A stretch of 34,108 nucleotides of DNA from assembly GCA_003153435.1 (NCBI GenBank), contig PLYR01000034.1:1-34108 (forward strand), read 5' to 3'. Shown here piece after piece: positions 22,598-34,108 of this stretch. Every line of letters begins with the position of its first letter. Within the stretch, counting starts at the first letter, position 1. The notes under the pieces were generated by a model. It saw nothing but the letters and a program-made list of their open reading frames with translations, did not search any database and had not been told where the DNA came from. The DNA comes from Bacteroidota bacterium. Lineage in GTDB: Bacteria > Bacteroidota > Bacteroidia > Palsa-965. Both the position numbers and the translations under genes were made by a program.

Positions 22598-23173
22598 ATG
22601 AAAAAGATTATTCTCTTCAGTACTACTGCACTACTATTATTTGCTTTCCGGGCAGTTGATTCAACAACATGGACCGTCGACAAAGGACATTCCCGCTTAG
22701 GATTCAGCATCACACACTTAGGTGTAAATGAGATTCAAGGTGATTTCAAAAAGTTTGAATGTGCCATTACCACTTCGAAGGAAGATTTCTCGGATGCTTT
22801 GGTTGAAGCCTCTGCTGAGATTTCCAGTATCAATTCAGGAAACGAAAAACGTGATGAGCACCTCAAAAGTGCCGATTTCTTTGATGCGGCAAAGTTCATG
22901 ACCCTAACTTTCAAGAGCAAATCGGTGAAAGTGATGGGCGATAACAAGCTTAAAATCAGTGGTGATCTTACTTTGCACGGGGTGACCAAACCGGTTGATC
23001 TGGATGCATCATACCGCAAAGGGATGAACCCTATGTCCAAAAAGGATATTGTTGGTTTTCATATCAGCGGAACCGTTAAGAGAAGTGATTTTGGAGTCGG
23101 TGCCACTTTCCCGGCCCCGATGCTGAGCGACGAGGTTATGCTTGTTGCCGACGGCGAATTCGGAAAAAAATAA
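22598..23173 (+). CDS. YceI family periplasmic protein
   Basis: A 191-residue secreted protein with signal peptide MKKIILFSTTALLLFAFRA. The YceI lipocalin-like signature is complete: TTWTVDKGHSRLGFSITHLG near the N-terminus, GDFKKFECAI, a central KRDEHLKSADFFDAAKFMTL (residues about 87-106), the strand GDLTLHGVTKPVDL, and a final GFHISGTVKRSDFGVG. YceI proteins are periplasmic beta-barrels that bind long isoprenoid or amide lipids. A consensus promoter lies upstream. A second, more diverged YceI-like gene follows 82 bases downstream across a hairpin repeat, suggesting an old duplication. Confidence 0.92.
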   Translation: MKKIILFSTTALLLFAFRAVDSTTWTVDKGHSRLGFSITHLGVNEIQGDFKKFECAITTSKEDFSDALVEASAEISSINSGNEKRDEHLKSADFFDAAKFMTLTFKSKSVKVMGDNKLKISGDLTLHGVTKPVDLDASYRKGMNPMSKKDIVGFHISGTVKRSDFGVGATFPAPMLSDEVMLVADGEFGKK

Positions 23174-23255: not shown

Positions 23256-23798
23256 ATGAAAAAGATATCCTATCTGATCCTCCTGATCATTTCCCTTACC
23301 GGATATGCATTTGTCTGTCTTTTAACACAGAACTGGGACCTGAACACCGGATATGTTGTGAAGTTCGTCAACCCGGAAGCAACAGGTACGTTTGAGAAGA
23401 TGACAGCGGAAATCAGTTTTGATGAAAAAGACCTGCCCAATTCTCATTTTGATGTTCGTATTGATGTGAATTCAATTAATCTGGGAAGCCCGGAATTAAG
23501 TAAACAAGCTTTAAGTCCGGATATGCTTAATGCCCATAAATTCCCGCTGATTCACTTTGTTTCTTCAGCAGTTCAGAAAGCTGGTACTGGATATATTGTC
23601 AAAGGAAGCCTGGAGCTGCATGGTGTTAAAAAGGATATTGAGATACCTTTTACTTTCCTGACTAAAGTTTTCAAAGGAGGATTTGAAATAAAAGCCAAAG
23701 ATTACGGAATCAACAGTCTTGGCAATGGTCAGGAAGATATTCTGAAGTTAGATCTATCGGTTCTAGTCAAAGAAGCCCCTGCCCAATCAGGGAAATAA
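23256..23798 (+). CDS. Second, divergent YceI-like protein
   Basis: A 180-residue secreted or anchored protein. Signal segment residues 1-24 (LILLIISLTGYAFVCLL) contain a cysteine at residue 21 without a typical lipobox context. YceI-like features are NWDLNTGYVVKFVNPEATGTFEKM, LSPDMLNAHKFPLIHFVSSAV (matching the central D-x-L-x-A-x-K-F-P-x-I-x-F pattern), GSLELHGVKKDIEIPFTF and the terminal KAKDYGINSLG. It is clearly more diverged than its neighbour at 22598 and lacks the K-R-D-E-H-L wording. It may bind a different lipid, and read-through from the first YceI gene is possible despite the hairpin between them. A terminator follows. Confidence 0.8.
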   Translation: MKKISYLILLIISLTGYAFVCLLTQNWDLNTGYVVKFVNPEATGTFEKMTAEISFDEKDLPNSHFDVRIDVNSINLGSPELSKQALSPDMLNAHKFPLIHFVSSAVQKAGTGYIVKGSLELHGVKKDIEIPFTFLTKVFKGGFEIKAKDYGINSLGNGQEDILKLDLSVLVKEAPAQSGK

Positions 23799-23989: not shown

Positions 23990-23997
23990 TAAATTTG
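23990..23997 (+). promoter_or_regulatory. Possible -7 box for the 13-PKD gene
   Basis: TAAATTTG matches TAnnTTTG and lies 18 bases before the ATG at 24016. The nearest upstream TTG (23961-23963) is 26 bases away, slightly more than the usual 17-23. Confidence 0.4.
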
Positions 23998-24015
23998 TTT
24001 AGAACCCCTGATAAC

Positions 24016-27000
24016 ATGATGAAACGAGTACCTCGTTTATGGCTTTTCTTTGCTATTTTCTTGTTATCCGTGTCCCCGATGATGGGAGGGGTCGTGGCCA
24101 ATTTCTCGTCAAACGTTAATTCTGGTTGCAGTCCCCTTACCGTTAATTTCACAGATCACTCTACAGGAGGACCTACTTCCTGGCACTGGACTTTCGGTAA
24201 CACCAATAACTCGAACAGCCAGAATCCATCTGCTGTTTATAGCTTACCGGGTACTTACACTGCAACTTTGGTTGTTACTAATGGTCCTTCGACTGACTCT
24301 ATGAAGGAAGTGATAACCGTTTATGCAAACCCGGTTGCTGCTTTTTCAAATACATCCCCGACCTGCGTCGGTCAGAATATTACATTTACGGACCATTCGG
24401 TTGCAGGAAGTGGACCGATTTCAAGCTGGCACTGGGATTTTGGAGACGGAAGCAATGCCAATACGGCTAATACAGCAAACCATATATACTCCTCTCCCGG
24501 AAACTACCCTTCCAGCCTGATCGTTACCGATACTCATGGTTGTAGCTCCAGTGCTGTGGTTTCTGTAGTTGTGAATGCAATTCCTGTCGCCGCTTTTTCA
24601 GGTACCCCTTTAACTTCTTGCACGGCACCGCTCCTCGTTACTTTTACGAATACCTCTACCGGAGGAGGGGCTACCTATTCCTGGAATTTTGGGGATGGAG
24701 GCAGCTCGGTACTTACAAACCCTACTCATACGTATAATGCAATAGGAAGCTATGCCGTTACACTTTATGTGACACAAAATGGATGTGTAGATTCCCTGCG
24801 CCAGCCCAATTATGTGATCATACAACAACTGGTAGCTGATTTTAAGGCCGATACTACCCGAATTTGTCTGGGTCAGAGCATCTCGTTTACGGATCTTTCT
24901 GTACCGTCTCCTTCAATATGGAACTGGTCATTTGGAGACGGGACGAATTCGGCCATACAGAACCCGGCTCATATCTACCTCGCTGTGGGCACCTATACGG
25001 TATCGCTGGCAGCATCAGATCCGGGAGGTTGTGCAAGCAATCAAGTGAAAAATAGTTATATCACCGTGTTGCCTAATCCCATTGCCGGATTTAGCAATAC
25101 CGCTACTTCTTCCTGTTCTGCTCCTTTTAGCGTAACATTTACAGACACGACGGTGGGAGCAGTATCCTGGGCATGGAGCTTTGGAGATGGAGGCACTTCC
25201 AATGCATCAAACCCTTCCCATACTTATCTTAGCAATGGAAATTATTCTGTGAAGCTGGTCATCAAAAATGCAAATGGATGTACCGACTCCATTATAAAAC
25301 CAAATCTGATTAACATTTCCCCCACCCCAGCATTTTTTATCGCGAATCCAACCCTTGGATGCATTCCTCTTACTGTAAACTTTATGGATACAACCACTAC
25401 CGGGTTCGTTCCTGCGGCCAGTTATATCTGGGATTTTGGAAATGGTACTGTAGTTACGACCGGTGTACCCACGGTTTCCAATACTTATACCTTAACCGGA
25501 GTATATACTGTTAAGCTGACTGTAATTACTTCAACCGGATGTCGCGACAGCAGCACGTTGGTTGTGAAGACTGGCACTCCTCCTGTAGCGAATTTTACCG
25601 GGGCTCCAACTACCATTTGTTTTGGTCAATCGGTTTCATTTACGGATCTGAGCACTGGAGGTGCAAACCAATGGTTGTGGACTTTTGGAGATGGAGGAAC
25701 TTCTACGGCTCAAAACCCGGCACACGTATTTACAGATACCGGTACTTTCACTATTCAGCTGATAGCCATGTTCAATGGTTGCCCGGATACGGTGAAGAGA
25801 ATAAATTACATTCAGGTAAATCCTCCTATACCAAAGTTTACGTTCACGCTGAGTTGTGTTTCGAACTTTACCGTTCAGTTTACGAATACTTCCATTGGTG
25901 CAGATTCTGTAACCTGGGATTTTGGTGACGGAACATTCGACAATACCAATAATAATTCCCCAACTCATATTTATCTCACCCGGGGTACCAAGACTATAAT
26001 TCTTACTGCTTATAATAAAGTCACGGGATGCTCTTTTTCCATTACGCATTCACTAGTGGTGGCTTTGCCTATAGCCGCATTTTCCTCCACTCCAAACCCA
26101 CCTAATGGATGTATTCCGCTTGCTATTGTCTTTCCCAATACCTCTCAGGATGGAGTCCAGTTCTTATGGAACTTCGGTGATGGGGGAACCTCCACTCTTG
26201 CATCTCCGCCACATACTTATCTGACAAAAGGTACCTATACGGTGAGCCTGACCGTGACCGATACGAATGGCTGTACAAACACTCTCACGATTCCCAATTA
26301 TGTACATGCTCTTGGTATTACTACTCCAAACTTTACGGCCACCCCTCTGACCGGATGTGCCCCGCTTTTTGTAACCTTCCAGGATTCAACCGTTTCTGAC
26401 TCGACTCTGGTACGATGGACGTGGACATTCGGAGATGGAACTCCTCCGGTTGTGTTCGGACCCACTCCGGTTAATCCGAGCCACGAATATATGCTAAGAG
26501 GAAATTATAATGTGACCTTAACAGTGGTGGATACAGATGGATGTACGGCTACCGTTACCCGCTTGAATTATATCAATCCTACAAAACCTTACCCCTCGCT
26601 CAATGTGGATACGTTTGCCTGCAAAGGAAACTCCCTCCCTTTTGATGCAAGTGCTACGACCGGAACTTCTCCGCTGACCTATAGCTGGGACTTTGGTGAC
26701 GGGAACACCGCTACTACCGCTGCCAGTTTAACGACACATACGTATGCGTCAGATAATGTCTATACGGTGACGCTTACGGTAAGTGATCCGAACGGGTGCG
26801 ACAGTGTGATCAAAAAGACAATCCGAATCCTGCAGCCAGTGGCTTCTTTCCGGGATTCTGTATTAAGCTTCGGTTGTGGAACAGAGCAGGTGCAGTTTAT
26901 TAACCAGTCGACCGGATTCGTTAACTCCTGGCAGTGGAGCTTTGGGAATGGGGCAACCTCCACCCTTCAAAACCCTGCGTATACTTATACGAGTCCTGGA

Positions 27001-27879
27001 ACTTATCAGGTAAAGTTAACGGTACATAATTTGGGTGGATGTGTCGACTCTATTGTTAAAGACAGTATTGTTGTTGTACCCGGGCCCCTCGGAACATTTA
27101 CATTTGCTCCTAAGATCGGTTGTGTACCACTGACCGTTCATTTTATAGCCTTATCGGGCAATGCAACTTATTTTACGTGGGACTTTGGTGATGGAACCGT
27201 CATCTCTCAATCACATTTTACGTCCATTTCACATACCTATACACATCCTCTGATTGTTACACCGATATTGCTTATTGGAGATACCTTGCCGAATCACAGC
27301 ATCTGTGAGCTGCCGGCAACAAATCTTACAGGAACAGTTACGGTCACTCAAAGTGTCAACCTGACGATTATCCCCGGCGGACCCATTACTATTTCGGATG
27401 ACCAGTTGCAACCCCTCAATACGGTTATTACCAGCACTACAAACAACCTGACTTATTCCTGGGGTCCGTCGCAGGGGTTGAACTGCACAAATTGCCAGGA
27501 TGTATTAGTGTCTTCGACAGGTCAGAATATGACTTATTATTTTACGGTCATAGATATTGGAAATGGAGGTTGTACCAATACGGATTCAATCCAGATTATC
27601 TATCAGAACTGTGACGCAAATCCTTTCATTCCGAATGTATTTAGTCCGAATGGAGATGGAGTGAATGATGTCTTTTATGTGGATGGAATTTGTTTCAAAA
27701 CCACCTACCGCTTTACGGTTTACGATAGGTGGGGGGTTGAAATGTTCAGTACCAGCACCCGACGTGAAGGCTGGGATGGAAGGACCACCTCCGGAGAAAA
27801 TGCACAGCCGGGAGTATACTACTACCTGGTCAATGCAGATGATAAAGTCTTTAAAGGATTTATTGAATTGATCAGATAA
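24016..27879 (+). CDS. Secreted protein of 13 PKD domains with T9SS type B (CHU_C) sorting domain
   Basis: A protein of about 1,287 residues. The ATG at 24016 (or the adjacent one at 24019) is chosen; the frame otherwise begins only with a TTG at 23995. A signal peptide (RLWLFFAIFLLSVSPMMGG) is followed by 13 tandem PKD domains of about 84 residues, each with W-x-[WF]-x-F-G-[DN]-G and a later [HY]-x-Y-x-x-x-G-x-[YF] strand. A linker with TYSWGPSQGLNCTNCQ precedes the CHU_C domain (FIPNVFSPNGDGVNDVF ... YDRWGVEMF ... GWDGR ... GVYYYLVNA). Such proteins are exported by T9SS and act as surface stalks or adhesins. No catalytic domain is present. It converges on the SprB-repeat gene with 6 bases between the stops. 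Confidence 0.92.
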   Translation: MMKRVPRLWLFFAIFLLSVSPMMGGVVANFSSNVNSGCSPLTVNFTDHSTGGPTSWHWTFGNTNNSNSQNPSAVYSLPGTYTATLVVTNGPSTDSMKEVITVYANPVAAFSNTSPTCVGQNITFTDHSVAGSGPISSWHWDFGDGSNANTANTANHIYSSPGNYPSSLIVTDTHGCSSSAVVSVVVNAIPVAAFSGTPLTSCTAPLLVTFTNTSTGGGATYSWNFGDGGSSVLTNPTHTYNAIGSYAVTLYVTQNGCVDSLRQPNYVIIQQLVADFKADTTRICLGQSISFTDLSVPSPSIWNWSFGDGTNSAIQNPAHIYLAVGTYTVSLAASDPGGCASNQVKNSYITVLPNPIAGFSNTATSSCSAPFSVTFTDTTVGAVSWAWSFGDGGTSNASNPSHTYLSNGNYSVKLVIKNANGCTDSIIKPNLINISPTPAFFIANPTLGCIPLTVNFMDTTTTGFVPAASYIWDFGNGTVVTTGVPTVSNTYTLTGVYTVKLTVITSTGCRDSSTLVVKTGTPPVANFTGAPTTICFGQSVSFTDLSTGGANQWLWTFGDGGTSTAQNPAHVFTDTGTFTIQLIAMFNGCPDTVKRINYIQVNPPIPKFTFTLSCVSNFTVQFTNTSIGADSVTWDFGDGTFDNTNNNSPTHIYLTRGTKTIILTAYNKVTGCSFSITHSLVVALPIAAFSSTPNPPNGCIPLAIVFPNTSQDGVQFLWNFGDGGTSTLASPPHTYLTKGTYTVSLTVTDTNGCTNTLTIPNYVHALGITTPNFTATPLTGCAPLFVTFQDSTVSDSTLVRWTWTFGDGTPPVVFGPTPVNPSHEYMLRGNYNVTLTVVDTDGCTATVTRLNYINPTKPYPSLNVDTFACKGNSLPFDASATTGTSPLTYSWDFGDGNTATTAASLTTHTYASDNVYTVTLTVSDPNGCDSVIKKTIRILQPVASFRDSVLSFGCGTEQVQFINQSTGFVNSWQWSFGNGATSTLQNPAYTYTSPGTYQVKLTVHNLGGCVDSIVKDSIVVVPGPLGTFTFAPKIGCVPLTVHFIALSGNATYFTWDFGDGTVISQSHFTSISHTYTHPLIVTPILLIGDTLPNHSICELPATNLTGTVTVTQSVNLTIIPGGPITISDDQLQPLNTVITSTTNNLTYSWGPSQGLNCTNCQDVLVSSTGQNMTYYFTVIDIGNGGCTNTDSIQIIYQNCDANPFIPNVFSPNGDGVNDVFYVDGICFKTTYRFTVYDRWGVEMFSTSTRREGWDGRTTSGENAQPGVYYYLVNADDKVFKGFIELIR
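24091..27360 (+). repeat. Array of 13 PKD domains (coding)
   Basis: Thirteen beta-sandwich units average about 84 residues. In units 2-12 an early cysteine (before the [PQ]-x-x-[VI]-x-F strand) is matched by a late G-C, consistent with one disulfide per domain. Unit 1 lacks the late cysteine and unit 13 has it displaced. Two subtypes mix: GC-x-P-L-x-V-x-F and IC-x-G-Q-S-[IV]-S-F. Confidence 0.85.
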
Positions 27880-27885
27880 AGATTT

Positions 27886-30800
27886 TTAATCCCTCATTAG
27901 CATGAGGAACCCTGTAAGGTCATAAGAAACTCCATCATCCCCTTGCGCTTTCAGGATATAGTAGTAAGTTCCATTAACAGCTTTTAACCCAGCCAGCGTA
28001 TATCCATCCCAACCTTGCGAAGGCGCATAAAGCTCGGCCATCATCACTCCCCATCGATCATAGATCTTGCAATTGAAAGTTGAAATCCCTCTGGAGTTGA
28101 TCTGGAAAACATCATTGGAGCCGTCTCCATTCGGAGTGAACACGTTCGGGATAATTACCCAGGATTTAACGTCTGTCACAACAATTACTCGGGTATAAAC
28201 ACTCGTGCATCCATTTGGATCGGTTACGGTTTCTGTTACCGTATAAGTACCGGCTGCTGTATAGGTATGTGTTGGGTTTTGTCCTGTTCCTGTAGAGCCT
28301 TCTCCGAATGCCCATGCCCAGGAAGTTACACCTACACTGCTGCTATCCATAAAATTGACAGCAAGGGGAGCTGTGCCTGTTACCACGTTCGGGGTAAAAT
28401 GTGCCATAACCGTATAAACGGTAACAGAGTATGTGGAGGTGGTGCTTCCGCATTGATTGCTCACCGTCACAGAATAAGTTCCAGAATTAGAAGCGTAGAT
28501 GCTGTTCGTTGAACTTCCTCCAGGGTTCCAGGAATAGGTGTAAGGAGGGCTTCCTGTGGCTTGTGCCATGAGCTTAGCAGAATCTCCTGCACATAGTGTA
28601 TTCAGTCCGGTGATCGTTACACTGGGTTGAGCAATCAATGTCACAGTTACTTTTGAGCTGTCTGTACCACAGGCATTGGTCGAATAGAGCGTATAGATCC
28701 CTGCAGCGGTAACCGTGATTGAGTCTGCAATTGAACCGGTACTCCAGGAATACGAACTTCCTCCTGAAGCGCTTAGGATGACACTTCCTCCGTTACAGAA
28801 ATTGAGGGGACCCGAATTTGCGATTACAGACACAGGGGCTATGCCGTTGTTCAGAATGGTAACAGTGGATAACGTGCTACATCCATTTGCATCCGTAACG
28901 GTGCATGTGTAAATACCCGGGCTCAGGTTTCCAGCTGATGCCGTATTTTGTCCAGTTCCTGGTGCCGGATTCCATGAATAAGAATAAGCTGCGGTGCCTC
29001 CTGAAGCCGCAATAGATGCCGCCCCGTTATTTTTTTGACAGGTAGCATTAGACGGTGTCCCGGCAGAAGTAAGAACTGGAGGTTGAGTGATGTTGAAGGT
29101 TTGAACAAGTGAACAACTGGAAGAATCAGTAATGGTGCAAGTCCAGGATCCCTGACTAAGTCCTCCCACACTGCCTGTTCCTTGTCCGCTTGCAGGTGCG
29201 GGATTCCAGGAATAAGAATAACCAGAACCTACAGTCCCTCCAGACACCGTGACCTGTGCAGTTGCATTTGAATTTCCATTACAAGAAACATTGGTATTGT
29301 TGCTAAGGGCAGAGAGTGCTCCTGGTTGTGTCAGTACAAATGTTTTTAGAACGGTACAGCCATTTGCGTCGGTGATGGTACAGCTATAAGTATTTGGACA
29401 AAGGCCAGTAAGGGAGTCGACAGTAACAGGAGAGCCTGCCCAGGAATACGTATATGGAGCGGAACCACCTGTTGCCATTGCAATAGCCTTTCCGTTACAG
29501 GCGGCATTGCAAGTAACATTGTTTTGAATGGGGACTGCAGCCAGGGGAGCTGGCTGGATAAGGGTATCAATCTGTGTAATTAGACAATTGTTATGATCGT
29601 ACACATAGCAGGTATAAGTACCCGCGCAAAGACTGCTGGCGGAATTTGTGGTATTTAAAGGATCGTTAGACCAGGAATAGGTATACGGACTTATACCACC
29701 GGATGCAGTAACGCTCATCGTTCCGTTGCAGACTCCGTTACAAACCAGATTGTTGTGTACCGCTGTTGCTGAAGGTCCTCCTGAATTGTTCACTGCTATT
29801 GTAAATTGTTGTACACAGCTGTTCTGATCAGAAACGAAAAGCGTATAGGTGCCTGCGCTTAATCCTCCGGCCAGGGTTGTGCCTTGTCCAGTGCCTGGAG
29901 CAGGATTCCAGCTATAAGTGAGTGTGCCAGTTCCGCCAGAAGCAATTCCGGTGGCACTTCCATTAGACATCCCACAGGAAGCGTTTGTGGAACTTGGTGT
30001 GGCCGTAATTGCAGGAGCTGGGGCAAGTGTTACATTCTGTGTAGTGGTACATCCATTCTGATCAGTAATATGACAAACGTAAGATCCTGCACAAAGAGAA
30101 CCAGCTGTTGCTGAAGATCCTCCGGTAGGAGACCAGGAATAAGTAAGTGTACCCGTTCCACCTGAACCATTTACCTGAGCAGTTCCGGTACAAGCTCCGT
30201 TGCAGGAGGGCGAAGCGGAGGAGGTGAGGCTGGCAGTGGGCCCCCCCGCAGTAGTAATATTTGCAGTAGTGGTTTGGCTGCATCCGTTTGCATCGTGCAC
30301 AGTAACTGAATAAGTTCCGGGGGCTAAGCCACCCGCAGTTGCAGTGCCTTGACCACTTCCAGGGGCAGGTGTCCACACATAGGTATAAGCAGGATTACCT
30401 CCTCCGGTAGTTACAGAGGCTGTTCCGGTTGAACCTGAACAGGCCGATTGGGTAGTTCCTGAAACAGAAAGTGTCAACAGAGCGGGTTGTGTAATAGTAT
30501 AAGGTGCAGAGGTGAAGGTGCATCCCTTAGAATCCGTTACCGTGCACGTATAATTCCCCGAGCAGAGTGAGCTTATCACAGATGTTGTGCCGGGGTTACC
30601 AGTCCAGGAATAGGTATAGGGTGCGGTTCCGCCAGAGCTGGAAGCTGTAGCAGTACCATTACAAACACCGTTACAACTCAAATTGGTCTGAGAAGGAGCG
30701 GTGCTAAGCGCTGAGGCAGGTTGCGAAATAGTGAATACATGGTTCACTACGCAACCCTTTGAATCATTGGTAGTACAGGTATAGGTCCCGGCTGAAAGTC

Positions 30801-33465
30801 CACTTACAGAATTGGTTCCCTGCCCAATTGGAGGGGAGCCGGTCCAGGAATAGGTATAAGCAGAGGTTCCTCCACTTGCAGTTACAGTGGCAGTGCCGGT
30901 TGTGTTTCCAAAGCAATTCACATTGGTTTGTGCAGGGGCTACAGAAAGCGTACCGGGTTGTGTAATCGTTGCACTCTTGGTAGTCGTACAACCATTGTGA
31001 TCTGTAATGGTGCATACATATGTATTCGGACAGAGGGAAGATGCTGTTACCGCCGTACCCCCTCCATTCGTCCAGGCATAGGTATAGGGAGCAGTTCCTC
31101 CGGATGGGGTAACGGTGGCAGTTCCGTTACATAAACCGTTACAGGAAATATTTACAGGACTAATTCCGGAGCTTAGTGCTGCCGGAGGAGCGTTAATAGT
31201 GACTATAACGGTATCTCCTGCATCACTTGGACAAAGCAGGGACCCTTTTACAATAACGGTATAGGAACCTGCACCAAGACCTGAGATCGTTTGGGTAGTC
31301 TGTCCGGTGTTCCAGGAATAGGAGTATGGCGCTCCGCAGAAGGTTGGATTGGCAGTAATGGAACCGGTATTGCCTGCACAAAGAGGTTGAGTGACAGAAG
31401 CGGTTAGAGCACTTGGCGGGGTACAAACCGAAACAGTAATCGCGGAGACAAATGAAGTGGCATCCGTTGCACCTCCGCAGGCATAGAGTGTTCCATTAGT
31501 TCCCAGTGCAAGGTCGAAGACCATATCGGGTAACCCGCTTATGGTTGCTATGAGGTTAAGGTTTTGATCATACTCGTAAATATTAGTGTTGGAACCTACG
31601 AACACATTTCCACACTTGTCGACAAGCAGTCCTCCATTAATCTGGAAATTAGTACTGCTTCCATTGGAGGCAACATTCTTACCGCCGGTAATAGTAGTTG
31701 TGTGAATGTGTGCTCCATTGGCTGCATCCCACTGATCGAGATTGAGTCCATCGGTCGTGTAGATATAGGCACAGGACCCCGTAAGGGAATTCATACCTGC
31801 TGAGTTCGGTGCTTTTTTATCGAAATCTCTGAAACTATATCCTGTAGGGATTGTAAAGATCCTCAATCCTGTTGCCGGATTGACACAAACAAGCTTGTCA
31901 TTGGGCCCACTGGTGTATTTAGGAACCGTTACCGGGTTCTGTTGTGCTTTGTAGTTACTATCCGAACTGAGGTGATAAATCATTCCGTTAGGTGCCCAGA
32001 AGGAGGAGATAATATCTCCTAATGTATCATTTACATGAAAGGAGGTCTCTGCTCCGGTGGAGGTATTAACGGACTCCCAGTCGCCAAGATTGTGATATCT
32101 GCTTACTCCGTTATACGTTCCGCCACCCGACTGAATAAGTTGTGTGTTATCGCAGTTGAATGAAAGGTTCCACGTTTCATAAATGTCAGTCGTCCCTGAT
32201 CCAGGAGCAGCACTACCCCATAGCCGGGTTGTACCGGTCGGATCTACCTTAACGGTATTGTAATAGTTAGGGAAGTTCCCCAAGCCAATTGTGAGATAAA
32301 CATTTCCAGCAGGATCTGCTTTGACATCTCCCTGATAAATCTGATTATATCCAAATTTGGTGATCAGGTCGAGCGTCCACTGTTGAACTCCTGCAGCATT
32401 GAATTTTGTGACGTGAGACCTTCCACCGGTAGTGGTGTCTATGGAATAGACGAGGGTGTTACCAGCTCCATCAACAGCTATGTCATCGGCAGCTTCATTG
32501 ACCGCAATGGGTGGACCTACAGTCCATGGATCAATAACCAACACGTTTTTTATTTCACCTTTGATCAGACTCAGATCGAATCCAACGAGGTTAGGAGTGA
32601 GCAGAACAAAATGGGAAGGTGTTGGTAGTTCGGGACTTTGAAAATAGGATGAAGGTGCATGATCAATCAGATTGCCTTGTGCAGTTTGAATAACTATGTT
32701 CTTGTCTGCATCAAGTCTCACGGTTTTATCCGGATATTTCATTCGGATAACGGAAGCATCTGCTCCTGGGTGAAGGATGAACGCATATTTAATTCCTCTA
32801 TCAGGATGAATAGAATACTCAAGATCGATGTGTGGATAAAGATTTTTATAAACCAGCTTTTTAAACCCCTTTGCATGACCGATAATTTCTGCTTTTTTAG
32901 AAAGCATCAGGTAATTAAAATAATTGCCGGCTTCTTCGGATGCTAAAATTTCCGGTTCGGGATTAGCTCCTTGCCATTGCATGATCACATCTTCCCTCGT
33001 TGGTATAAATCGTTTTCCTGCTATTTCCTCTTCTGCGTCACCGCTTTCTTCAAGGATAACTTGTGTCTTTGCGAACGAATTCCACTCTTCTTCAGAAGCT
33101 TGTTTTTTTCCGGAAACACGGTAGATCAGTCCTTTCTTGGTAAAGAATATGTCCGTAATCCCATCCCGATAGGTATATAGAATATCTTTCTCAGAGACGT
33201 TATCGGGTGCATCGCATTGACCTTTGTTCTCAATAAAAAGTCTGTTGTTGGAACTTCTGATTGGCTTCAACCAGGTAATTGTGCCGGATGCCTGTTGGTG
33301 TCTTCTTGCTGCCTCTTCAGCCCTTTTGCTACCTTGAGAGAATACAACAAGTTGCTTAGGTTTTGAGGTATTGATTTGTTGTGCATGATAAACAGGGATC
33401 CATAACAGGACCACCAATAAGGTCGGCAAAAGTTTTGTAAATTTTCTTCCCACGTATGATTCCAT
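27886..33465 (-). CDS. Giant SprB-repeat surface protein with T9SS type B (CHU_C) sorting domain
   Basis: About 1,859 residues from the ATG at 33465 (the codon before it is a TTG). Signal peptide: LLPTLLVVLLWIPVYHAQ. Residues about 70-315 hold the Bacteroidota surface-protein domain starting RLFIENKGQ, similar to DUF7948. Residues about 315-680 are a propeller-like region (DDIAVDGAGNTLVYSID, VKADPAGNVYLTIG, DKCGNVFVGSNTNIYEYD). Eleven SprB repeats run from about 684 to 1,542, then two Ig/PKD-like domains and one PKD with FGEG. The CHU_C domain ends the protein (IPNVFTPNGDGSNDVFQIN, YDRWGVMM, GWDGYTLAG). SprB repeats occur in the gliding adhesin of Flavobacterium, so a surface adhesin role is likely but not proven. 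No gld genes are in the window. Confidence 0.92.
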   Translation of the reverse strand: MESYVGRKFTKLLPTLLVVLLWIPVYHAQQINTSKPKQLVVFSQGSKRAEEAARRHQQASGTITWLKPIRSSNNRLFIENKGQCDAPDNVSEKDILYTYRDGITDIFFTKKGLIYRVSGKKQASEEEWNSFAKTQVILEESGDAEEEIAGKRFIPTREDVIMQWQGANPEPEILASEEAGNYFNYLMLSKKAEIIGHAKGFKKLVYKNLYPHIDLEYSIHPDRGIKYAFILHPGADASVIRMKYPDKTVRLDADKNIVIQTAQGNLIDHAPSSYFQSPELPTPSHFVLLTPNLVGFDLSLIKGEIKNVLVIDPWTVGPPIAVNEAADDIAVDGAGNTLVYSIDTTTGGRSHVTKFNAAGVQQWTLDLITKFGYNQIYQGDVKADPAGNVYLTIGLGNFPNYYNTVKVDPTGTTRLWGSAAPGSGTTDIYETWNLSFNCDNTQLIQSGGGTYNGVSRYHNLGDWESVNTSTGAETSFHVNDTLGDIISSFWAPNGMIYHLSSDSNYKAQQNPVTVPKYTSGPNDKLVCVNPATGLRIFTIPTGYSFRDFDKKAPNSAGMNSLTGSCAYIYTTDGLNLDQWDAANGAHIHTTTITGGKNVASNGSSTNFQINGGLLVDKCGNVFVGSNTNIYEYDQNLNLIATISGLPDMVFDLALGTNGTLYACGGATDATSFVSAITVSVCTPPSALTASVTQPLCAGNTGSITANPTFCGAPYSYSWNTGQTTQTISGLGAGSYTVIVKGSLLCPSDAGDTVIVTINAPPAALSSGISPVNISCNGLCNGTATVTPSGGTAPYTYAWTNGGGTAVTASSLCPNTYVCTITDHNGCTTTKSATITQPGTLSVAPAQTNVNCFGNTTGTATVTASGGTSAYTYSWTGSPPIGQGTNSVSGLSAGTYTCTTNDSKGCVVNHVFTISQPASALSTAPSQTNLSCNGVCNGTATASSSGGTAPYTYSWTGNPGTTSVISSLCSGNYTCTVTDSKGCTFTSAPYTITQPALLTLSVSGTTQSACSGSTGTASVTTGGGNPAYTYVWTPAPGSGQGTATAGGLAPGTYSVTVHDANGCSQTTTANITTAGGPTASLTSSASPSCNGACTGTAQVNGSGGTGTLTYSWSPTGGSSATAGSLCAGSYVCHITDQNGCTTTQNVTLAPAPAITATPSSTNASCGMSNGSATGIASGGTGTLTYSWNPAPGTGQGTTLAGGLSAGTYTLFVSDQNSCVQQFTIAVNNSGGPSATAVHNNLVCNGVCNGTMSVTASGGISPYTYSWSNDPLNTTNSASSLCAGTYTCYVYDHNNCLITQIDTLIQPAPLAAVPIQNNVTCNAACNGKAIAMATGGSAPYTYSWAGSPVTVDSLTGLCPNTYSCTITDANGCTVLKTFVLTQPGALSALSNNTNVSCNGNSNATAQVTVSGGTVGSGYSYSWNPAPASGQGTGSVGGLSQGSWTCTITDSSSCSLVQTFNITQPPVLTSAGTPSNATCQKNNGAASIAASGGTAAYSYSWNPAPGTGQNTASAGNLSPGIYTCTVTDANGCSTLSTVTILNNGIAPVSVIANSGPLNFCNGGSVILSASGGSSYSWSTGSIADSITVTAAGIYTLYSTNACGTDSSKVTVTLIAQPSVTITGLNTLCAGDSAKLMAQATGSPPYTYSWNPGGSSTNSIYASNSGTYSVTVSNQCGSTTSTYSVTVYTVMAHFTPNVVTGTAPLAVNFMDSSSVGVTSWAWAFGEGSTGTGQNPTHTYTAAGTYTVTETVTDPNGCTSVYTRVIVVTDVKSWVIIPNVFTPNGDGSNDVFQINSRGISTFNCKIYDRWGVMMAELYAPSQGWDGYTLAGLKAVNGTYYYILKAQGDDGVSYDLTGFLMLMRD
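28844..31419 (-). repeat. Eleven SprB repeats of two alternating subtypes (coding)
   Basis: Eleven units of about 78 residues (about 234 bp). Subtype A has CNGxCNG near its start and SLC-x4-Y-x-C later. Subtype B has P-A-P-x-x-G-Q-G-T and G-L-x-x-G-[ST]-[YW]. From the N-terminus the order reads B-like, A, B, A, B, A, B, A, A, B, B. DNA similarity between units is visible by eye (the GGAATAGGTATA-type core recurs on the plus strand), so slippage or recombination is possible. Confidence 0.8.
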
Positions 33466-33502
33466 CAAGTCCTGATTTTAATATCTGTAATAAAACCAGC
33501 CC

Positions 33503-33724: not shown

Positions 33725-34108
33725 TTATCGAATCAGAGATACGTGACCAATATAGTTGTGATTGAGGCCGAACACATCTTTCAGGCTGACTTTCCAAACA
33801 TACACATCTTCCTGACATAGGGTTCCGCCGGTACCCTGAACCGTACCGTTCCATCCTTCATAGAGGTCATTCGTTGTAAAGATGTGGTTACCCCAACGGT
33901 CAAAAATGATTAATTCATATTTGTCAATTCCTACCCCATATCCATAGAAGAGGTCATTATGTCCATCTCCGTTAGGTGTGTAACAATTTGGAATAAAGAA
34001 GGTGAAAATGGGGCCAATAACAACGGGCTCATAGGCTGTATCCATACATCCATGAGGGCTGGTAACGATGAGTTGAACCGTATAGGTGGCTGGGTTTTCA
34101 CCATTGTA
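33725..34108 (-). CDS. T9SS type B (CHU_C) protein, C-terminal fragment cut by the window edge
   Basis: 127 codons and a stop are visible, open in frame to the right edge. The first part (YTVQLIVTSPHGCMDTAYEP) is the end of a PKD-like domain with its usual late G-C. CHU_C follows: FFIPNCYTPNGDGHNDLFYG, IFDRWGNHIF, EGWNGTVQG and YVWKVSLKDVFG, ending YIGHVSLIR. It is therefore another T9SS-exported surface protein, in the same orientation as and upstream of the giant SprB-repeat gene. Cysteine replaces the usual valine in the first CHU_C strand (IPN-C-YTPNGDG). The N-terminal architecture is outside the window. A strong terminator follows the stop, so it is not co-transcribed with the next gene. 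Confidence 0.9.
   Translation of the reverse strand, partial: YNGENPATYTVQLIVTSPHGCMDTAYEPVVIGPIFTFFIPNCYTPNGDGHNDLFYGYGVGIDKYELIIFDRWGNHIFTTNDLYEGWNGTVQGTGGTLCQEDVYVWKVSLKDVFGLNHNYIGHVSLIR

Follow-up and report, generated by a model that had tools for sequence, protein, structure and literature searches.

Cysteine co-variation suggests that SprB repeats of a Bacteroidota surface protein are chained from domain to domain by disulfides

The repeat array of a large surface protein encoded by a Bacteroidota bacterium is, in our judgement, probably a rod in which Ig-like SprB domains are fastened by disulfides of two kinds, one joining neighbouring domains (C1–C5, named below) and one formed inside a subset of domains, called type A (C2–C3). 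This reading comes from the pattern of cysteine losses and replacements, from residue coupling and from a fold model. The gene lies in a stretch of 34,108 nucleotides (contig PLYR01000034.1 of assembly GCA_003153435.1), hereafter the window. In gliding Flavobacterium the adhesin that moves is SprB, and SprB-related repeats occur on T9SS-exported proteins of many Bacteroidota. We know of no settled account of how so long a filament bears force at its domain junctions, and in the full-text literature that was searched, mostly outside subscription journals, we found no report of C1–C5 wiring between domains in SprB repeats.

The open reading frame occupies 27886-33468 on the minus strand with a TTG start; an ATG lies at 33465, and residues are counted from it throughout. 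We read the N-terminus as signal-like and followed by a propeller-like stretch. After DUF7948 come the eleven SprB repeats and two shorter units related to them, and a PKD domain and a T9SS sorting domain of type B complete the protein (Table 1). The SprB repeat profile (PF13573) matches ten stretches of the protein, with 247.1 bits against a cut-off of 28, and the array itself (28840-31419, minus strand) is made of eleven tandem units of 76–81 amino acids each. The protein carries a type B sorting domain and its genome a T9SS translocon, as expected of a type B T9SS substrate: the SprA model matches the genome in two parts, at contig ends, with 1519 and 740 bits. A profile search for GldK in the same genome gave a match under the cut-off, and of the 11 PorP-family matches found there as candidates for a PorP/SprF-like gene, none lies on the window's contig (C75). 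On the plus strand, a convergent neighbour (window 23995-27879) encodes 1,294 residues with 13 PKD stretches and a type B sorting domain of its own, and two adjoining YceI-like genes are found at 22598-23173 and 23256-23798. Upstream of the SprB-repeat gene, the window edge truncates another gene, whose end (33725-34108, minus strand) encodes a CHU_C sorting domain.

Table 1. Features of the SprB-repeat gene and its product (positions in the window)
Feature	Position	Strand	Basis or remark
SprB-repeat surface protein gene	27886..33465	minus	1,859 residues from ATG, stop included
DUF7948 (PF25778)	32524..33237	minus	138.7 bits, cut-off 27
Cys681, linker cysteine ahead of array	31423..31425	minus	proposed partner Cys745 (C5 of U0), putative pairing
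U0, divergent B-like (C1, C5, one extra Cys710)	31180..31419	minus	cysteine content
U1, type A	30949..31179	minus	cysteine content
U2, B with long C1 loop	30712..30948	minus	cysteine content and loop length
U3, type A	30478..30711	minus	cysteine content
U4, B with short C1 loop	30238..30477	minus	cysteine content and loop length
U5, type A	30010..30237	minus	cysteine content
U6, B with short C1 loop	29773..30009	minus	cysteine content and loop length
U7, type A	29545..29772	minus	cysteine content
U8, type A	29317..29544	minus	cysteine content
U9, B with long C1 loop	29074..29316	minus	cysteine content and loop length
U10, B with short C1 loop; conserved last unit	28840..29073	minus	cysteine content, tree
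b11 and b12, two shorter related units	28417..28800	minus	C1 present; C5 two columns earlier
PKD domain	28180..28386	minus	C5 present (Cys1753), without C1
T9SS type B sorting domain (CHU_C, TIGR04131)	27898..28155	minus	CHU_C 64.6 bits, cut-off 27; TIGR04131 49.3, cut-off 35

We named the cysteines of a unit after their motifs, C1 (SCNG), C2 (CNGxC), C3 (SLC), C4 (YTC) and C5 (NGC); C2, C3 and C4 stand at alignment columns 13, 47 and 53. Five units of the array (U1, U3, U5, U7 and U8, type A) carry both C2 and C3, the latter in an SLC or GLC motif and the former, in U5, as CNGACTG. The other six (U0, U2, U4, U6, U9 and U10, type B) carry neither. An earlier, sequence-only reading of the window had described a B-like unit followed by A B A B A B A A B B, with C2 and the SLC cysteine always together in A and always missing from B, and the cysteine content bears this out in 5 of 5 A units and 6 of 6 B units.

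For comparison we sampled 35 stretches of the protein's own genome and 39 of relatives, next to three named loci, and added 40 stretches each from a draw over the phylum and a draw over the class, together representing 95 genomes (1 own, 27 relatives, 30 from the phylum draw and 40 from the class draw, with three in two sets). The relatives set was retrieved with the SprB-repeat protein itself and is biased toward its unit types, while the two draws were retrieved with PF13573 and consist of chosen high-ranking matches, a non-random sample. A total of 2,600 units was detected in the four sets, 2,292 of them usable, with a readable C1–C2 stretch and column 47. The unit counts exclude the PKD protein encoded on the plus strand of the window, and one unit is counted twice because the L088 stretch repeats part of L055. 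The own genome is rich in SprB repeats: its SprB matches number at least 150, as many as were scored out of 527 candidates, and its 35 stretches together with the window contain 471 detected units in 53 open frames.

C1 and C5 are lost in register with the neighbouring unit. C1 of unit i and C5 of unit i+1 are both present at 2,150 junctions and both absent at 11, where 0.11 co-losses were expected, and C1 or C5 stands alone at 2 and 8 junctions, respectively. The 11 co-losses are spread over 6 proteins of 6 genomes; one protein (L162) accounts for five of them, and excluding it leaves 6 (p 1.5e-13). At other offsets co-losses number 0 in the same unit, 4 at i-1, 7 at i-2, 1 at i+2, 1 at i-3 and 0 at i+3, and the 7 at i-2 belong to three arrays with a period-3 loss pattern, which aliases i+1. 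L162, L165 and L192 show a succession of C1-less unit, C5-less unit and complete unit, recurring roughly once in three units in L162. Taken by itself, the class draw shows no co-loss and five C1-less junctions that retain C5, four with a cysteine in the linker and one (L222) likely an alignment shift.

When gapped rows are included, 31 of 2,170 junctions are without C1, and 17 of these are also without the next C5. The 14 C1-less junctions that retain the next C5 have a linker cysteine in nine cases, against 31 of the 2,139 junctions with C1; of the other five, four look like an alignment-shifted or cut C1 (L099, L095, L222 and L229) and one (L215) is unexplained. The opposite situation, C1 present and next C5 absent, is found at 16 of 2,139 junctions with gapped rows and at 2 in the strict count. 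Linker cysteines following C1-less units, in contexts such as PSC, LSC, PDC and TCN, appear as if replacing C1 in L213, L214, L233, L207, L208 and L113. At the start of arrays, a linker cysteine precedes the first unit in 61 of the 113 arrays whose first unit has C5 and in 1 of the 7 whose first unit is without it (p 0.056); in the other 52 of the 113 there is no cysteine within the stretch of linker searched. The joint loss of C1 and the C5 of the following unit, and the linker cysteines that replace a missing C1, make it probable, in our view, that disulfides link each domain of an SprB array to the next. Applied to the window's protein, this scheme uses every C1 and every C5, with 14 C1-type cysteines (Cys681 plus one C1 in each unit from U0 to b12) for 14 C5 cysteines (U0 to PKD). 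From the computed positions, the proposed inter-domain pairs would be 681-745, 696-826, 775-905, 851-982, 931-1062, 1009-1139, 1088-1217, 1164-1294, 1242-1370, 1319-1451, 1395-1529, 1476-1599, 1557-1672 and 1625-1753.

The two cysteines of type A go together within a unit. Both C2 and C3 are present in 567 of the 2,292 units and neither in 1,701, while 21 have C2 only and 3 have C3 only. In the same order (both, C2 only, C3 only, neither) the counts are 85, 12, 1 and 314 in the own genome, 341, 7, 2 and 408 in relatives, 9, 0, 0 and 428 in the phylum draw and 132, 2, 0 and 551 in the class draw; type A, frequent among the relatives, is thus rare in the phylum draw, with 9 of 437 units. Discordance between C2 and C3 is 1.0% in the same unit and rises to 16% when one of them is compared with the neighbouring unit. 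Even the 24 units with a single cysteine mostly conform, as in 22 of them another partner is present or the alignment is shifted: 18 have another cysteine at columns 43–45 replacing C3 (VCP type), three have a shifted C1, one has a shifted C2 and two are unexplained (L124 and L094). The 12 C2-only units of the own genome make up a third kind of unit, which combines CIGQC with VCP..TTTYT (for example in L030, L026 and L025), the partner lying three columns before the place of C3, and all 12 of these VCP-type units are second from the end of the detected array.

Additional cysteines were seen outside these two pairs. In the own genome a rare pair occupies columns 19 and 43, with both cysteines in 10 units and one of them in 6 and 5 (n=403). 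For C4, no partner was found among the cysteine columns tested, in the same unit or the next. It occupies what we take to be the place of the F-strand cysteine of Ig domains, and is probably a buried thiol; C4 is shared by adjacent units slightly more often than in within-protein shuffles (119 vs 108.1 +/- 4.4 in 57 proteins).

A structural model agrees with the pairing of C2 and C3. The segment U3-U4-U5, modelled from 40 aligned segments, is all beta (mean pLDDT 90.4, pTM 0.58) and resembles an Ig-like beta-sandwich of two sheets and about seven strands, with matches to the Ig tandems of NCAM and titin at Z 9.6–10.5; searched against the PDB by phmmer, the repeat region gave only two weak matches to decoration proteins. 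In the model, C2 (segment residue 17) is just before a strand (19–26) and C3 (residue 50) just after another (45–49), strands that we read as B and E by Ig order. Columns 13 and 47, those of C2 and C3, are the top coupling of the single-unit analysis (rank 1 of 2,149 pairs), and the coupled pairs 18-42, 15-45 and 13-47 each sum to 60, as in an antiparallel ladder. Since the pair is in register with the B–E strand ladder of the Ig-like fold, C2 and C3 very likely form a disulfide within the type A unit. The bond that the sequence-only reading had placed inside A units therefore finds strong support in co-variation, coupling and strand placement. In the window's protein its candidate pairs are 779-812, 935-968, 1092-1125, 1246-1280 and 1323-1356. 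As for C1 and C5, a two-unit analysis ranks C1(i)-C5(i+1) 5 of 9,328 pairs, C5(i)-C1(i+1) 116 and C1-C5 within the unit 1,019.

The textbook guess would be that C1 bonds to C5 inside each unit, with the pair of A units as the only extra. Certainly, both cysteines are found in 2,337 of 2,411 units, and in the single-unit analysis they couple at rank 30 of 2,149. However, the other 74 units are without one of the two (42 without C5, 32 without C1) and none is without both, the losses pairing with the next unit instead. A bond within the unit would also leave Cys681 and Cys1753 partnerless and, going by the Ig order of the model, the C1 loop and the F–G turn would be at opposite ends of the domain. 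With no co-loss in the same unit and losses that pair with the next, we reject this arrangement as improbable. Alternatively, the cysteines might mark a metal site or mere packing, with contacts that co-vary for other reasons. Columns 13 and 47 do couple at rank 13 of 2,149 among 1,808 units that have neither cysteine, so that the two positions touch anyway; but the cysteines occur in pairs of which one partner at a time changes its place (to columns 43–45 or to the linker), which fits disulfides in an exported protein, and we consider this explanation very unlikely.

The sequence-only reading, for its part, had the disulfide of A units alone and an array that grew as A–B pairs, each some 156 residues long, were copied, with slippage close to the A A B B end. 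It had the unit order and the cysteine pair right, the units do cluster by subtype in three trees, as it required, and copying of this kind is found in a paralogue (L043, see below). Against it, the 8 switches in 11 units are matched or exceeded by 41 of 462 arrangements (p = 0.089), and there is no excess of switches elsewhere: A/B switches are close to shuffles in the own genome (91 vs 89.0 +/- 4.8) and fewer than in shuffles over 63 proteins (268 vs 301 +/- 10), which indicates that unit types come on the whole in blocks. Alternation was accordingly rejected as a significant pattern. The orthologue L055 (59% identical, JABDCB010000001.1), which also has 11 units, has them in the order BAAABABAAAB, differing at 2 of 11 positions (U2 and U9), and the end units are common to paralogues. 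Taken as a whole, we find that proposal quite improbable, and prefer the inter-domain C1–C5 chain with its additional C2–C3 bonds.

The history of the array was further examined through unit identities and trees. Different units are 40–58% identical in DNA and Tandem Repeats Finder reported no array, so recent copying shows no sign. With the orthologue, identity is only 45% at U2 and U9, whose units are not each other's best match, so that whole units differ there, beyond two residues. At the other nine positions identity is 49–78%, and the same position is the best match for seven. Trees were made of 86 units from ten proteins (large) and of 22 units (small). With trait columns kept, the large tree sets short-loop B units (U4, U6 and U10) apart from A and long-loop B units (U2 and U9) with support of 95/93; with trait columns removed, this split is unresolved. 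In the latter case label A needs 8 changes, against 28.8 in shuffles, with at least 3 forced by well-supported branches, and U2 joins U3, O3 and P91.3, all three type A, in a supported group (95/85). The small tree, on the other hand, gathers every B unit but U0 into a single clade (90/95), U2 and U9 included. B units are not clearly one lineage, and in our reading C2 and C3 were acquired or lost together on more than one occasion.

Copying of an A–B pair thus has no support in the window's protein, where alternation is within chance and B units fall in several groups, and it was rejected there by unit identities and trees. Nor does the A A B B end look like the product of slippage: in both large trees U7 groups with units from the matching position of other proteins, and U10 does so fully with trait columns and partly without them, so that a conserved architecture seems the better description. 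In paralogue L043 (3365-7222, plus strand, contig C140 of the own genome) the sequences make it clear that A-B pair copying occurred. Its order is BABABABABABB (alternation p 0.0076, the best of 40 proteins tested), and its A units 2, 4, 6 and 8 form a supported clade, as do its B units 1, 5 and 7, joined by B unit 3 when trait columns are removed. Other arrangements were also seen: L120, L200, L201, L197 and L209, from five genomes (G014, G363, G311, G252 and G283), share an order of 17 B units, five A, one B and then a run of A, and on contig C34 of G037 SprB-like repeats lie in an open frame 11,129 residues long, of which the part fetched has B units only.

In the proposed architecture, C1, carried by the loop that precedes strand B in unit i, would bond with C5 in the F–G hairpin of unit i+1, producing a head-to-tail chain. 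The C2–C3 bond of type A would span the end of the B–E strand ladder and pin the C1-bearing loop to the E–F loop at the next junction. Domains would presumably fold and oxidise in the periplasm before export by the T9SS. With the C1 loop tied to the F–G turn of the next domain, bending and twisting may be limited and the filament stiffened; since type A ties the C1 loop to its own E–F loop, an A junction should be stiffer than a B junction. It is about as likely as not that this can be generalized, such that SprB-type arrays across Bacteroidota are covalent chains, each domain bonded to its neighbour, to which lineages near this genome add an optional type A staple at particular junctions, the A/B order setting the stiffness of each stretch of the filament. 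If true, the way the filament bears force would be explained simply, by a disulfide joining each domain to the next, and the making of SprB-type proteins would be tied to periplasmic disulfide formation.

Among known systems, SprB of Flavobacterium johnsoniae is described as a T9SS protein of large size and repetitive sequence that bears a type B sorting domain (PMC9143113). The window's protein shares these features and the SprB repeat (PF13573), but has other N-terminal domains and no PorP/SprF-like match on its contig. The best solved relative by sequence (2.5e-16) is grappling hook protein A (GhpA) of Aureispira (PDB 9flp, 9flw, 9flx, 9fls and others), whose matched stretch has C1-like (ICEG, PICEG) and C5-like (NAQGC, DANGC) cysteines. 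GhpA is also the first fold match of our model (9flw_A, Z 10.8, rmsd 6.0 over 221 residues), tied with the unrelated Ig tandems of NCAM (10.5) and phage Hoc (10.0), and is reported as a T9SS-secreted heptamer (PMC11205867). The extenders of RTX adhesins, described as tandem beta-sandwich repeats with junctions stiffened by calcium (PMC7493085), differ in having calcium clamps where we propose disulfides. In the giant adhesin of Mobiluncus mulieris, an account of tandem Ig-like domains gives covalent cross-links that include disulfides (PMC10619420); as described there, these lie within domains separated by a flexible linker, whereas the main bond proposed for the SprB array is between domains. 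A disulfide between SprF and GldK (PMC12635249) indicates that such bonds carry load in the gliding export and motility system, although that one, according to the same source, anchors the adhesin carrier to its track and is outside the repeats. If the C1–C5 chain is true, disulfide-chained repeats would join the calcium-clamped and the cross-linked adhesins.
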